Positions 7,889 through 13,565 of a stretch of DNA of 64,000 nt are shown here, in pieces. The number at the start of each line of letters is the position of its first letter. The first letter of the stretch is position 1. Position numbers and translations under genes: made by a program. The notes beneath the pieces were generated by a model that did not search any database, was not told where the DNA came from, and saw only the letters and a program-made list of their open reading frames with translations. The DNA is from Planctomycetota bacterium (GTDB taxonomy: Bacteria > Planctomycetota > Planctomycetia > Pirellulales > Pirellulaceae), in contig VGZA01000034.1 of NCBI GenBank assembly GCA_016872775.1, forward strand, positions 1-64,000, in the 5' to 3' direction.

Positions 7889-8986
7889 ATGGAAAACCAG
7901 TGGCATGGTGCCCGCACGATCCCGGTCAGGCTGCAACGCTGGCTGCAACTCGCCGTCGAATCCCAAGCGTCCGACCTGCACCTGATCGTGGGAAATCGTC
8001 CCGCATTGCGGTTGCAAGGCAATCTGCGCGAACTCGAGGAAGCCGAATTGTGCTCCGAGGACACACGGGAACTGGTGGCGAATCTCTGCGAGCCCGACGC
8101 GATCGTCCGCTTCGAGGGCCAGAAGAGTCTCGATTTTTCCTTCGACTATTCCGGCCATTCCTGGAGCAGCCGCTTTCGCGTGAACCTGTTCCATTGCGGG
8201 CGCGACATTGGAGCCTGTCTGCGGGTGATTCCGCACGCGATTCCCACATTCGAATGGGCCAATTTTCCCACGGCTCTGGGGCAGCGTCTGGCCTTGCTGC
8301 GAGACGGGCTCGTAATCCTGACCGGTGCAACCGGCTCGGGAAAAAGCACCAGCCTGGCCATGATTGTCAACCTGCTGAATCAGCAAGGCGGGTATCGGAT
8401 CATCACCGTGGAAGAGCCGGTCGAATATGAGTTTCCCAAGGCCAGCCATTCGATCGTCACCCAACTGGAAGTTGGACGGGACGTCCATTCATTTGCTGAC
8501 GGTCTGAAATATGGTCTGCGGCAGGATCCTGACGTGATCCTGGTCGGCGAGATCCGCGACAAGGAAACGGCCCAGATGGCATTGAGTGCGGCCGAAACGG
8601 GGCACCTGGTCTTCAGCACTCTGCACACCCGCGACGCGAAAGGGGCAATTACGCGTTTCGCGGATCTGTTTCCCCAAGAGGCACAGTCGGACATTCGCGC
8701 ACAGCTGGCGATGAGCCTGCGGTCGGTCGTCAGCCAGCGGTTGTTGCCCGATGCCAGCGGCGAAGTGCAGCGGCACCTGACGCTCGAAGTGCTGTTCAAC
8801 ACGTTTCCGATTGCCAGTGCGATTCGCATGGGCAAGATCGAGTCGATCGACAATTACATTCAGACCGGACGGGACGACGGGATGATTGGCTTCGATGAAT
8901 CGATTCGCCGTCTATATCGCGCCCAGAAAATCAGCCGCGACACCGCGGAAGAGAATATGCGCGAGCCCGGTTCACTGAACCGTTGA
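7889..8986 (+). CDS. pilT: PilT-family type IV pilus retraction ATPase
   Basis: 365 residues, the usual PilT length. The N-terminal PAS-like domain has the signature ASDLHLIVGNRPALRL. Walker A is GATGSGKST at 146-154, Walker B is DVILVGE at 215-221, and the His box is TGHLVFSTLHT at 237-247. PilT hexamers hydrolyse ATP at the inner membrane base of type IV pili and drive retraction and twitching. Other pilin-like proteins occur in the window but no pilus assembly operon is adjacent. Its 3' end overlaps the 3' end of the convergent fhcC by 15 bases. Confidence 0.92.
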   Translation: MENQWHGARTIPVRLQRWLQLAVESQASDLHLIVGNRPALRLQGNLRELEEAELCSEDTRELVANLCEPDAIVRFEGQKSLDFSFDYSGHSWSSRFRVNLFHCGRDIGACLRVIPHAIPTFEWANFPTALGQRLALLRDGLVILTGATGSGKSTSLAMIVNLLNQQGGYRIITVEEPVEYEFPKASHSIVTQLEVGRDVHSFADGLKYGLRQDPDVILVGEIRDKETAQMALSAAETGHLVFSTLHTRDAKGAITRFADLFPQEAQSDIRAQLAMSLRSVVSQRLLPDASGEVQRHLTLEVLFNTFPIASAIRMGKIESIDNYIQTGRDDGMIGFDESIRRLYRAQKISRDTAEENMREPGSLNR

Positions 8987-9799
8987 TCCGTTGCGGGGGC
9001 GCCAGATCAATAGTTCGCCTTTCCCCGGAACGGAAGAATCGCCGGAGTAGCAGTCGTAGGTGCCCTGATCATCGAGCGCTGGTAACGCGATGTCCCAGTC
9101 GGCAAGTTGGCGGGCGAGCAGCCGCAGGAATAACGGGTTGTGCGAGCAACTGGTGGCAAACGTCGGCAGCAGCGGCAGCGGGGCCAGCGAGATAATCGTT
9201 CCGCGAACCATCCAGGCTCCCGCGCGGATTTCGGAGCCGGCGCGCAGGAGTATTGTCCCCCCCTTCATTTGCAGACCGGCGAAATCTTTCACGCGTTTGC
9301 CGACGACAATCAGGCCGCGCCGCATCCGCATCCCGATTTCCAGCCCGGCAGTTCCGTCGATGATGATCGTGCCGTTCTTCATTCCCGAAACGCTGCCTCG
9401 ATAGGCCGCGCCCACCTGCCCGCCTGCATCTCCACGGACGCGGATCGTTCCCTGGCTCATTTCCGCACCCAGCCAGTCGCCCGTGTTGCCATGCACCTCG
9501 ATTTCACCGCCTTTCATGCGGGCTCCGAGGTGCATTCCGGCATTCCCGACGATTTCGATCCGGCCTTGCGACATGCCGCGCCCCAGCCACTTCACGCGCG
9601 AAAGGTCGCCGATCAATTTCAACTCCAGGCCCGGCGCACCGCTGATGTCGAAAAACTCGTCCAGTCGGCGTCGGTGTTTCCCAAGCTGCAGTGGCAAGGC
9701 GCGGATTTCATCGAGCGACATCCGGGCCAAGGTGTCCGGGGAAATCAGTTCCGCCTCCAGCGGCACCGGAGGATTCTGTTTGAGTGTCAGTTGCAGCAT
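8972..9799 (-). CDS. fhcC: Formylmethanofuran dehydrogenase/transferase subunit C
   Basis: 275 residues. The middle is a right-handed beta-helix made of GxxxGxxM-type repeats (IEIVGNAGMHLGARMKGG, IRVRGDAGGQVGAAY, IIIDGTAGLEIGMRM), the signature of FwdC/FhcC and the glutamate synthase alpha C-terminal domain. In the archaeal and methylotroph complexes this subunit packs against the amidohydrolase subunit and helps form the formyl-carrier channel. It is the last gene of the fhc operon, 18 bases after fhcA. In Methylobacterium the formyltransferase gene fhcD lies between C and A. Here there is no room for it. Confidence 0.92.
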   Translation of the reverse strand: MLQLTLKQNPPVPLEAELISPDTLARMSLDEIRALPLQLGKHRRRLDEFFDISGAPGLELKLIGDLSRVKWLGRGMSQGRIEIVGNAGMHLGARMKGGEIEVHGNTGDWLGAEMSQGTIRVRGDAGGQVGAAYRGSVSGMKNGTIIIDGTAGLEIGMRMRRGLIVVGKRVKDFAGLQMKGGTILLRAGSEIRAGAWMVRGTIISLAPLPLLPTFATSCSHNPLFLRLLARQLADWDIALPALDDQGTYDCYSGDSSVPGKGELLIWRPRNGSTVQ

Positions 9800-9817: not shown

Positions 9818-11455
9818 CTATTCGGCCGGTATGCAGTTTCGCAATTCAGCGTGCTCGACGCGTTCCAGTTCCACCGGATAATTCTCGAACTGCATCGTAT
9901 AGCAATCCTCGAACAGCGGTCGTAAATACTCCTCGATCGTCGATTCGTATTGCGGCTTGATAACGTACGAACGGCCGAGCGGAGTGGCCCGAATCTCCCC
10001 CTCCTCAATCACAATCTCGCCATGCTTGATGACATAGCGTGGGTGGCTGAACATCCGTGAAATGTCTTGATCCTGGTTGTAGACCGCGATGTCCGCATCG
10101 GCGCCGATCCCCAGGTGGCCTTTGTTGGACAGGCCCAAGGCGCGGGCTGGACCGGCCGAGGTAATGATCGCGATCTCGAAAAGCGAATACTCTCGGTCGA
10201 GTTCCGGGAGCCGGATCCGCCTTTTGGCCTCCTCGGACATTTTCGCCATGCAATCGCGGCGAAAGTCGGCCGACATCAGCAACTGCAGGATCTCGGGATA
10301 CCGCCAGAAACAAGCACCATTGGGATGGTCGGTCGAAAGGGAGACGCGCCAGGGATCCTTGATCATCAGCAGCAGTTCCAGGCCGCTGGCCCATTGCACG
10401 GCATTCACGATATTGCTGGGACGATACGTATACGGCACGATACCGCATCCCGTTTCATTCTCCACATCCAGGTTGCCCCATTTGCGACCGGTAAGTTTGT
10501 AGAGCAGGTGCTGCCAAGGTCCGTCGGCCGTAATCGTCACCGTGTTGCCGAACAGTACGGCGCCGGCGTCGGCGGTGAGATTCGAGTGGGCGTTGAAATA
10601 GTCGGCGATCGCTTCGGTCTCCGATCGCATCGTATTCCAGTCGTCGCCGCCATAGGCATGGTACTGGAGATGGGCAAGATGAGCCCGGTGTCCTTCCAGG
10701 CTCTTCATCGATTCCAACGTCGTTGTGTAATTTCCGGGAGCGCCCAGGTTGTTGCAATGCAGGTGCAGCGGATGGGGCAGCCCCAGCTCGTCAATGATCT
10801 GCGCCAGGCCGGTAATGATCGTTCCGGGTGTAAGTTTTCGATACCCTTCCACCGTTTCACTCAACTGCTTCGCGTCCTTACCCCACTTCCAGGCCGCGAC
10901 CCCTCCCGGGTTCACCGCCTTCACGCCGTACGCCTTGGACGCCCAGATCTGCCAAGCCACGACCTGCTTGGCGCGTTCCAGTTCGCCGTTTTCAAGCAGG
11001 TCGAGCACGATTTCGTTATTGGCCATCAACACGCAGCAGCTCTTGTCGACGATCGGAACGTCGCGCAACTCCTCGTGCGTATGCTTGGCGGACAGAATCG
11101 GGACCGCCGCCTCATTCAAGGTGGTCCAGCCCATTCCCGCGTAGAGGTAACCGGTGGCGAATGTTGTGGGGGCCATGCCTCCCAGGCCCGACCGCTGCGT
11201 TTGCGTTCGGATAAAGGCAACGGTGCGGCGATGGTCCTCCGGGGTCATGGCCCGCGCGAAATTGATCGCCCCGCCGGCCACATGCGTGTGCACATCGACG
11301 CCGCCCGGAAAAATCACCATCCCCGAAGCGTCCAGTGTACGTGCGCCGTCGCCCACCGCCGCGGCAATGCGACCGTCGGCGATACAGACGTCGCGGATCT
11401 GCCCGTCGACACCGTTCGCCGGATCGTAAACTCGACCACCCGTGATGCGTAGCAT
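9818..11455 (-). CDS. fhcA: Formylmethanofuran dehydrogenase/transferase subunit A (binuclear metal amidohydrolase)
   Basis: 545 residues. N-terminal amidohydrolase signature MLRITGGRVYDPANGV, metal site GGVDVHTHVAGGAINFAR (His-x-His), and the later motif HPLHLHCNNLGAPGN. These match FwdA/FmdA/FhcA, which hydrolyses or forms the formamide of formylmethanofuran (or a methanofuran analogue) at a di-zinc site. In bacteria the complex links formate to tetrahydromethanopterin-bound C1 units. The gene lies 53 bases downstream of fhcB and 18 bases upstream of fhcC on the same strand, consistent with one operon. Confidence 0.94.
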   Translation of the reverse strand: MLRITGGRVYDPANGVDGQIRDVCIADGRIAAAVGDGARTLDASGMVIFPGGVDVHTHVAGGAINFARAMTPEDHRRTVAFIRTQTQRSGLGGMAPTTFATGYLYAGMGWTTLNEAAVPILSAKHTHEELRDVPIVDKSCCVLMANNEIVLDLLENGELERAKQVVAWQIWASKAYGVKAVNPGGVAAWKWGKDAKQLSETVEGYRKLTPGTIITGLAQIIDELGLPHPLHLHCNNLGAPGNYTTTLESMKSLEGHRAHLAHLQYHAYGGDDWNTMRSETEAIADYFNAHSNLTADAGAVLFGNTVTITADGPWQHLLYKLTGRKWGNLDVENETGCGIVPYTYRPSNIVNAVQWASGLELLLMIKDPWRVSLSTDHPNGACFWRYPEILQLLMSADFRRDCMAKMSEEAKRRIRLPELDREYSLFEIAIITSAGPARALGLSNKGHLGIGADADIAVYNQDQDISRMFSHPRYVIKHGEIVIEEGEIRATPLGRSYVIKPQYESTIEEYLRPLFEDCYTMQFENYPVELERVEHAELRNCIPAE

Positions 11456-11508: not shown

Positions 11509-12843
11509 CTAAAACACCTGTTGGGTCGTACGCGGTTGATGGACCAGCCAGTCCGGCTTGACGCGGACAAGCTCGTGGATGCGGCGAACAACTTCCTCGT
11601 CCGTCGGGTACGGCGACTTGAGCGCCGGCCGCAACGGCAACGGCACTTCGTCCATGCGATAACCGGTTCCGGGCGCACTGATGCCGGTTACCGCCGTCGT
11701 GATATGCACACGCGCGAGGCGGCTGGTGTGCGTGACTTTGGGATCGAGCACAATCGTGGGAATCCTCGCCAGATGATCGATCGCGGGCTGCGGCATCGTT
11801 GCCCCCGGATCGGCTCCGAGGATCAACGCCGCGTCCGTGTCGCCGCGCACCAGCAGATCCACCGTGGAAAACTCGCCAGGATTGAACCTGGGATATCCGC
11901 GGTCAAAGCTGATTCCGAACGGATACCCGGTCGTCCAACGCATGATCACATCCGCCCCCGTCACATTGCCGTGCCCGCGCATCGGCATGGCCACGAATTT
12001 TGTGTAGGCGTTCAGTTCGGCGGCCAAGGTGAGTATGGCCGAGGAGTTCATATGTTTGCCGCGCGTCATCGACAATCCCATCCCGAAGAACATGACGCCG
12101 AAACGAGCCCGCTTCATGCGATCGACCAGGTCGCGAAGTTGTTCGATCGTGAGCCCTGTTTCGGCCACCATCGCAGGATTGACGTACTGGCCTTTCACAA
12201 TCGCGCGCAGAATCGTCAGCACCTCGAAGTCCCGCCCCGGACGAATCTGCAGGAAAATATCGGCCGCTTTGACACTCTTCGTTTCTCGAATGTCGACCAG
12301 CACCATCGTGCGGTCTTTGCGACCGCGCGGCAGATGCTTGCCCTTGGGCATCAGCGCGTACTTGGTAAAGTGCCGAGGATGACACTCGGCCGGATTGCCG
12401 CCCCAGTAAATCACCAGATCGGCCCGGTTTCGCACTTCGCCCAACGTACACGTTACCTTGCCACCCAACTGGGCGGCGATTTCCGTGGGGCCGTGTCACA
12501 ACGAAGTATGGCTGTCGACCACACCCCCTAAGCGCTCGGCCAGCGAAACCGCTTCTCGCTGCGCCTCGCAGGTGACGTTGCTCAGTCCATAGACCAGCGG
12601 CAAATGCGCCTTGTCAAGATATTCGGCGGCAACCGCGATCGCATCGTCCAGTTCCGCTTCGCGGCCATCAATCAGCGCGGAAGGATAGGCACGCTCCGCC
12701 GTGTGGTTGAGAAACCAGGACTTTCCGAGAATGCAGGCCGCCTTGGCCTCCACAATGCGCTCCGAATTGGCATGCAATTCGATGTCATCACATACGCAAC
12801 CGCAAAACGTGCACGTCGCATTCTTGACTACCGTCAGGTTCAT
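11509..12843 (-). CDS. fhcB: Formylmethanofuran dehydrogenase subunit B, predicted selenoprotein (TGA at 12496-12498 read as selenocysteine 116)
   Basis: The gene is one continuous frame of 444 residues if the internal TGA at codon 116 is decoded. Before it lie the start at 12843 (AAGGA 7 bases upstream) and Cys11, Cys14, Cys18 and Cys37, the 4Fe-4S site of FwdB/FmdB. The codons around the TGA read SHTSL-TGA-HGPTEIAAQLGG. In archaeal FwdB/FmdB this position holds the Cys or selenocysteine that binds W/Mo (Cys118 in Methanothermobacter, from memory), followed by the conserved His-Gly-Pro. The downstream part (VIYWGGNPAECHPRH, GDTDAALILGADPGAT) is full length and undecayed. A conventional annotator would report two fragments, 12496-12843 and 11509-12468. 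A nonsense mutation or sequencing error is the alternative. The exact position and the hairpin that follows make selenocysteine more likely. Confidence 0.87.
12448..12498 (-). promoter_or_regulatory. Putative bacterial SECIS element of fhcB
   Basis: Read on the minus strand, 18 bases after the TGA a 7-bp stem (GCCGCCC / GGGUGGC, one G-U pair) closes a four-base AGUU loop at 12467-12470. The first two loop bases include a G, 26 bases after the UGA, which is within the usual bacterial range. A lower stem can form between ACACG (starting with the A of UGA) and CGUGU at 12452-12448. This is the layout SelB recognises. The codons after the UGA (CAC GGC CC) match, from memory, those after the selenocysteine codon of E. 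coli fdhF. Found by eye and not folded by software. Confidence 0.72.
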
Positions 12844-12878
12844 GGCTAATCCTTGACGTTGGCTTCGGAGTTCATTGG

Positions 12879-12897
12879 GCCTTCCGTACCGGAAGGC
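12879..12897. repeat. Perfect intercistronic hairpin upstream of fhcB
   Basis: GCCTTCCG and CGGAAGGC form an 8-bp perfect stem around a TAC loop. It lies between the small ORF at 12912 and the fhcB start. There is no T-tract, so it is more likely an mRNA-stability or processing hairpin than a terminator. Confidence 0.5.
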
Positions 12898-12911
12898 GGT
12901 ACGACAAAGGA

Positions 12912-13064
12912 TCACCCTAGGGTACGGCCCAGGAAGCTGCCGCGAACGCGCCGCGGCATGAACCGCCCCGCGCTCACTTCTTCCCATGCTGGTATTTCCG
13001 AGTTTGCCGGCAGGTCGCCGACCGGCGCCGGATCAAGAAAATGCGGGCCTTGATCCCCGCTCAT
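12912..13064 (-). CDS. Possible 50-residue protein inside the fhc operon
   Basis: An ATG-TGA frame encodes 50 residues, ending in a basic tail (RFMPRRVRGSFLGRTLG). It fills the gap between the FwdD-like gene and fhcB on the same strand. Codon choice is strongly G/C at third positions, as in neighbouring genes. The Shine-Dalgarno sequence is weak (CGGA directly before the ATG). I do not recognise a family. It may be a real small subunit or a chance frame. Conservation next to fhcB in related genomes would decide. Confidence 0.35.
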   Translation of the reverse strand: MSGDQGPHFLDPAPVGDLPANSEIPAWEEVSAGRFMPRRVRGSFLGRTLG

Positions 13065-13160: not shown

Positions 13161-13508
13161 TTAACCGGCCACCTTCACAGGTTCTAATTCCACTTCCCAA
13201 CCTTTGGAAATCGGCATCCCCGTCCCATCGGTGCCGCCACCCATCAGACGTGACGTAGGTGGCCCGTACGGTACGCAGAGCAGTCCATCCGGTACCTTTC
13301 CCGCCTCGCACTGAAAAATCGCTTCGCCATACTCCGTCCAGACACGCACCGAATCGCCCGCCGCCAGGCCCAGCGATGTCATGTCGGCCGCGCTCATTGT
13401 CAGCGTATTCACGATCTTCTGATACTCGGGAGTCTCCTTGCCAACGTTGATCTGCTGCCCCTGCTGCGCCGTCCGAAGCGGATTCAGAATAAATCGTCGT
13501 GTCGTCAT
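13161..13508 (-). CDS. fwdD: FwdD/FmdD-like molybdopterin dinucleotide-binding subunit
   Basis: 115 residues. The fold signature is that of the molydopterin dinucleotide-binding domain: early TRRFILNPLRT, then ADMTSLGLAAGDSVRVWTEYGEAIFQC, then a proline/glycine-rich pterin loop GLLCVPYGPPTSRLMGGG. In archaeal formylmethanofuran dehydrogenase this domain is subunit D, or is fused to B, and holds the W/Mo bis-pterin cofactor with FwdB. It opens the operon, about 320 bases upstream of fhcB. Its presence argues that this complex keeps the redox cofactor. I chose the ATG at 13508 over an upstream in-frame TTG because AAGGAA lies just before it. Confidence 0.82.
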   Translation of the reverse strand: MTTRRFILNPLRTAQQGQQINVGKETPEYQKIVNTLTMSAADMTSLGLAAGDSVRVWTEYGEAIFQCEAGKVPDGLLCVPYGPPTSRLMGGGTDGTGMPISKGWEVELEPVKVAG

Positions 13509-13565
13509 GTTTTCCTTAGACAAGGCAGAGCAAAACCCGGAGTTGCCCTCGATTGTACCCCGCCG

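Follow-up and report, generated by a model that had tools for sequence, protein, structure and literature searches.

Does the TGA that interrupts a formylmethanofuran dehydrogenase gene of a Planctomycetota bacterium end translation, or is it read as selenocysteine (Sec), and what enzyme would the gene then encode? We analysed a stretch of 64,000 nucleotides, referred to as the window (positions 1 to 64,000 of contig VGZA01000034.1, assembly GCA_016872775.1), together with the remainder of its genome and a large set of relatives.

A single in-frame TGA in an otherwise intact fmdB

The gene and the codon at issue are the following.

11509..12843, minus strand: fmdB (fwdB-type), formylmethanofuran dehydrogenase subunit B, 444 aa with predicted Sec116, TIGR03129 499 bits, single in-frame TGA
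12496..12498, minus strand: TGA codon 116, predicted selenocysteine, TGA in Sec-class rows and named loci, Cys in the next clade

When the TGA is read as U, the frame gives 444 residues with U116 as the sole internal stop, in the context SHTSL-U-HGPTE, and closes with a terminal TAG, so that the original prediction of one open frame broken at codon 116 alone holds. It had also anticipated that standard annotation would list two broken ORFs, and translation with table 11 indeed gives 12496-12987 and 11509-12468. The protein matches the TIGR03129 model (formylmethanofuran dehydrogenase subunit B) over residues 8-424, well above the cut-off of 327.8 bits, and the Fdh-alpha model reaches only 48.5 bits, far under its cut-off of 666.25, indicating a different family. 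The predicted 4Fe-4S ligands Cys11, Cys14, Cys18 and Cys37 are all present, as had been noted, and CCCC is found at these positions in 57 of the 57 covering rows (59 aligned); as Fhc-like rows share it, this pattern has no power to discriminate between FmdB and Fhc.

The genome is a draft of 5.85 Mb in 141 contigs, 99.91% complete. Its single FmdB match at E 0.001 or better is the window fmdB, in the Sec form. A search with the Fdh-alpha model returned six matches, 0/6 over the cut-off, and only the match at fmdB contains an in-frame TGA.

Codon 116 is TGA in all rows of the Sec class and Cys in the next clade

Homologs of the window protein were sought in two overlapping draws, 392 genomes from the phylum and 296 from the order, and loci were taken from the best matches. 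The alignment holds 59 rows, of which L049 and L081, where codon 116 is uncovered, were excluded from the tree and the class counts. Results showed that codon 116 is TGA in 30/30 rows of the Sec class (the window row plus 29 from other genomes, 73-100% identity). In the next clade, 13 rows at 57-62% identity, it is Cys in 13/13, within the motif TTSV-C-HGP; the original prediction had placed the TGA at the Cys of an SHTS-x-C-H-G-P motif. Relatives with neither Cys nor TGA at this codon would have spoken against that prediction. The two closer classes carry one or the other, and more distant homologs depart from this: among the 13 rows at 31-47% identity, five show Gly, two Cys, one Ser and one Ala, and four have a gap where the motif is absent. 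Further matches of the 54-63% class, from the order search, have no internal stop, and G446 contains another Sec-class fmdB, split across contigs, with one TGA. In the plasmid collection no match reached 60% identity, all 143 matching records being below that value.

A second sample came from a named collection, consisting of the best 80 of 435 confirmed loci, which were found via two other motifs and ranked by likeness to the window protein. Codon 116 is TGA in 80/80 of these best-ranked loci, a ranking that favours the Sec clade, and some of them share genomes with the 30 rows. Because rows are related, neither row nor locus counts are counts of independent events. By label, 75/80 are planctomycete and 4/80 Acidobacteria. 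The Acidobacteria-labelled loci (L122, L125, L135, L158) have a Sec-type fmdB with an identical SECIS loop, which may reflect either transfer or an error of binning or labelling.

The Cys or Sec residue of FwdB/FmdB ligates Mo or W. Among PDB chains, residue 116 aligns with X in 9sfi_Q and with C in 8rja_B. The window protein thus has at the ligand position one of the two residues typical of FwdB/FmdB, encoded by an in-frame UGA for which Cys homologs exist. We also considered the TGAs of the distant matches G544, G526, G524 and G452 as signs of further selenoproteins and rejected them, all four being 3'-terminal stops; the TAA of G428 and the TAG of G460 likewise lie at the 3' end. Several Sec genomes (e.g. 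G266, G307, G395, G505, G592) contain an FmdB paralog at 43-48% identity, and a second FmdB-like gene was seen near the Sec-type operon at L149:3547-4857 and G266:C18:132128-133378.

A quick tree of 71 rows groups the 42 Sec rows used with L076, a row from G596 that lacks the residue, in a single clade (SH-aLRT 100) that excludes the Cys and Fhc-like rows. This tree is compatible with Sec having arisen once within these bacterial rows, or with an older Sec that was lost in others. The apparent stop at codon 116 almost certainly stands for selenocysteine, placed at the expected metal-binding site of FmdB.

The genome encodes the selenocysteine machinery

A genome search for selA, selB, selC and selD had been suggested as a check, and all were found, each over its cut-off: selA at 538.3 bits, selB at 315.8 bits and selD at 381 bits, and tRNA-Sec at 66.9 bits with the Rfam model. 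ARAGORN calls this tRNA SeC, with anticodon TCA, and a second Rfam match over the tRNA-Sec cut-off is a tRNA-Ser. The selA and selB genes are neighbours on contig C26, and SelD is presumably the Cys form, judging by its GCAAK motif. The selD cut-off is also passed by a further SelD-family match at G000:C13:89823-90731, whose open frame runs to 808 codons; it too has a C-x-x-K-like start and is possibly a fusion.

Across genomes, selB is over the cut-off in 30/31 Sec genomes versus 20/30 genomes chosen for lacking the Sec form (29 with a best match of the 55-63% class and no stop, plus G596), giving a Fisher p of 0.0026 with kinship ignored. The lone Sec genome without selB over the cut-off is G457, 65% complete. 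As two thirds of the comparison genomes carry selB, its presence is not specific to the Sec form. The selD gene is near the fmd operon in 5/96 loci (apparently four genomes); examples are L164 (G582), L165 (G422), L143 and L178 (G430), with selA and selB also present at L164 and L165.

A predicted SECIS hairpin is conserved at the codon level

Downstream of the TGA and inside the coding region lies a candidate for the element that would direct decoding.

12460..12477, minus strand: predicted hairpin of the bacterial SECIS kind, spanning nt 19-36 downstream of the TGA, with a 7-bp stem and the loop AGUU (12467-12470)

This hairpin begins 18 nt past the TGA and its loop 25 nt past it. A published bSECIS model, as given in the accessible part of its source, sets a loop of 3-9 nt, an upper stem of 4-16 bp, a G in the first two loop positions, a spacing of 16-37 nt and an MFE of at most -7.5 (PMC13188914). 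The fmdB hairpin lies within every one of these limits, with its loop AGUU, 7 bp, 25 nt and -14.6 kcal/mol. As a 23-nt fold it has a z of -3.82, and 0/200 shuffles were equally stable; longer folds did not exceed shuffles in stability (45 nt z -0.42; 65 nt z -0.09), and Rfam at gathering scores returned no match in the window.

Conservation of the hairpin was measured against a null in which synonymous codons, taken from each gene, were redrawn. Stem cells are paired in 205/210 cases (97.6%) across 30 loci, compared with a mean of 73.9% (sd 2.7) and a maximum of 82.4% in 2000 draws, a calculation that treats rows as independent although they are related. Moreover, among the 192 degenerate columns with an invariant residue in the 30 rows, the codon is invariant too at 115, 125 and 126 alone. 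Codons 125 and 126, CAG-TTG, form the hairpin loop and are invariant in 30/30 rows and in 80/80 named loci, with TTG making up on average about 23% of the Leu codons in these genes. Codon 115 (TTG in 30/30) was dropped as a signal, because its invariance fails in the set of 80 loci (TTG 43, CTC 21, CTT 15, TTA 1). Machinery, TGA conservation and hairpin all lend support to the selenium-dependent formylmethanofuran dehydrogenase originally proposed.

The operon is of the Fmd/Fwd type

The gene is flanked by three others that would encode its partners.

13161..13523, minus strand: fmdD, molybdopterin-dinucleotide-binding subunit, PF01568 34.4 bits (cut-off 26.8), NF042908 FwdD 70.8 bits (below the cut-off of 175)
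9818..11455, minus strand: fmdA, amidohydrolase subunit A, TIGR03121 698.5 bits (cut-off 392.75)
8972..9799, minus strand: fmdC, subunit C, TIGR03122 254.5 bits (cut-off 130.65)

Here fmdD is upstream of fmdB, fmdA and fmdC are downstream, and all four genes are whole. The complete order fmdD-fmdB-fmdA-fmdC was found in 46/57 loci, a set made up of the window and the 56 named loci (out of 80) whose flanks reach 2 kb or more on each side. The FmdD partner expected of a redox complex is present by PF01568, though NF042908 stays under its own cut-off. In flanks of up to 1.5 kb, fmdD was detected in 27/28 Sec rows (2 of the 30 were dropped for short upstream sequence), 8/13 Cys rows and 0/13 Fhc-like rows, where distant fmdD genes in the Cys and Fhc-like rows may be missed because the model was built from the Sec clade. 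The lone Sec row without a flanking fmdD is that of G671, where fmdD is matched on a different contig.

Judged by its gene content, this operon marks a putative redox enzyme of the Fmd/Fwd type, not the methylotroph FhcB. The gene had originally been called FhcB, a protein expected to have no Mo/W ligand residue; with a predicted Sec at the ligand position and fmdD adjoining, FmdB/FwdB is the better name.

The annotated neighbours of the operon include neither an FwdF- nor an FwdG-type subunit, and we saw no polyferredoxin or other low-potential protein beside it; among the shared neighbours that were identified, no recurrent electron partner was recognised. The formyltransferase gene ftr is close to the operon in 27/80 named loci, many of those 80 being incomplete. 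In the window's own genome ftr is found twice and mch once, over the cut-off, the second formyltransferase (FhcD/Ftr) gene lying at G000:C61:24705-25595.

One genome has lost the Sec motif

Genome G596 (99% complete) contains a full-length fmdB (L076, G596:C2:26860-28170) without internal stops, in which the Sec residue is deleted. It averages 65% identity with the Sec rows and 48% with the Cys rows, and it is changed at 22 of the 125 columns that are invariant in Sec and Cys rows. In the tree it falls inside the Sec clade, though its branch is long and the position of such rows is unsure. The fmdA and fmdC genes still adjoin it; the window fmdD as query gave no match at E 0.001 in this genome, and no selB was over the cut-off. 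We read this one genome as having probably lost the metal site together with Sec decoding, reaching an Fhc-like state. G596 offers a natural comparison for how a redox enzyme may turn into a cofactor-free hydrolase.

Proposed function and alternative explanations

Our main reading, to which we give a probability of about 0.93, is that the window fmdB encodes the catalytic subunit of a bacterial Sec formylmethanofuran dehydrogenase, with SECIS-directed insertion and the oxidative end step as the likeliest role. Computation shows the TGA codon, the Sec genes, the conservation of the hairpin, the operon and the clade; what we say on Sec insertion, metal, direction and electron acceptor of FmdB we infer. 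SelB and Sec-tRNA would decode UGA116 as selenocysteine, steered by the hairpin that spans nt 19-36 downstream of this codon. Judging from homologs, the selenium of residue 116 would be a ligand of Mo or W in a bis-pyranopterin cofactor that FmdB and FmdD bind between them, with one 4Fe-4S cluster (Cys11, 14, 18, 37) beside it. FmdA would hydrolyse formyl-methanofuran, and FmdB would oxidise the resulting formate to CO2. As the genome has formyltransferase and methenyl-H4MPT cyclohydrolase genes, this would most likely be the end step of H4MPT-linked C1 oxidation.

A decayed gene or a sequencing error, with fragments as the only products, would agree with the two ORFs of table 11 and with a draft in 141 contigs. 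The recurrence of TGA at codon 116 in 30/30 rows and 80/80 named loci excludes chance or a base-call error in practice, and both halves of fmdB are conserved, with no other internal stop, within an operon of four whole genes; we regard this explanation as negligible. Decoding of TGA116 as another amino acid without selenium, either Trp through a changed code or the product of near-cognate read-through, is hardly more credible. The next clade has Cys at this codon, not Trp, the TGAs of the four distant matches examined are terminal stops, and the genome has the Sec machinery as well as a conserved SECIS hairpin after the codon.

The direction of the reaction is where a rival deserves more weight. 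The Sec FmdB complex might instead be reductive, making formyl-methanofuran from CO2, or serve as a conditional alternative to the hydrolytic Fhc. Archaeal FwdB reduces CO2 according to the portion of the literature available to us (PMC10100899), and the FmdB paralogs at 43-48% identity in several Sec genomes would suit an alternative role. Yet we saw no low-potential partner adjoining the operon, and a single FmdB together with ftr and mch in the window's own genome would fit the oxidative end step, so we consider this rival unlikely, though well ahead of the other two. If the enzyme is active in the oxidative sense that we favour, C1 oxidation here would be selenium-dependent and its product CO2 instead of formate. 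Such an end step of Planctomycetota C1 metabolism is easily missed, because table 11 splits fmdB. On a wider scale, with odds that we place slightly short of even, a large Planctomycetota clade, with a few Acidobacteria-labelled loci, may end H4MPT-linked C1 oxidation via a Sec redox dehydrogenase yielding CO2 directly, not formate. In at least one lineage (G596), losing Sec decoding may then have been accompanied by losing the Sec codon and fmdD, so that the remaining FmdABC would be akin to the cofactor-free Fhc hydrolase, a redox-to-hydrolase conversion apart from the Fhc-like clade.

Comparison with known systems

E. coli formate dehydrogenase H carries a U-H-G-P type motif. With it and other FdhA selenoproteins the window FmdB has the Mo/W-bisPGD superfamily in common, 1aa6_A being a weak match (E 0.00058), but they belong to a different family, as the Fdh-alpha score below cut-off indicates. 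FhcA, FhcB and FhcC are homologous to FmdA, FmdB and FmdC. Chain 6s6y_B, from what we take to be the methylotroph formyltransferase/hydrolase complex Fhc, matches the window FmdB at E 5e-14, and the H4MPT-linked C1 pathway is common to both. However, methylotroph FhcB is described, in the accessible text, as a scaffold without Mo/W cofactor (PMC10100899), whereas the window FmdB has a predicted Sec ligand.

Archaeal Sec FwdB shares family and motif with the window FmdB; 9sfi_Q, which we take to be archaeal, has the nonstandard residue X. A selenium-dependent FwdB was reportedly described in Methanopyrus kandleri by Vorholt in 1997. Archaeal SECIS elements lie in untranslated regions, according to the section available of one source (PMC1088965), in contrast to the bacterial kind, inside the coding region, predicted in the window fmdB. 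Bacterial FwdB homologs are known, and Sec or Cys is named as the ligand, from the part of the review at hand (PMC10100899).

The original prediction was not aware of any bacterial FhcB selenoprotein in the literature, but one exists: in 2016, fmdB was reported as a selenoprotein in planctomycete P2 and two unclassified bacteria, by the available text of PMC4807772. There, P2 (Rhodopirellula) has a Sec FmdB and an operon as in the window, and a relative on a Lake Washington fosmid is described as well. P2, which we set beside the window by its description only, is said to hold both Sec and Cys FmdB forms, unlike the window's own genome, which has the Sec form alone (PMC4807772). In the open-licence literature searched, as far as its accessible text extends, we met no other account of a Sec FmdB from bacteria (including PMC1242214, PMC9312934, PMC8141765, PMC1794560, PMC7435645, PMC8808070). 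Part of another paper states that fwdD is absent from Planctomycetes (PMC5020050), a statement contradicted by the window fmdD and by fmdD beside nearly all Sec-class rows. A bacterial Sec fmdB with this operon has therefore been known since 2016, and what is new here is its breadth, the codon-level evidence for a SECIS and the G596 case.
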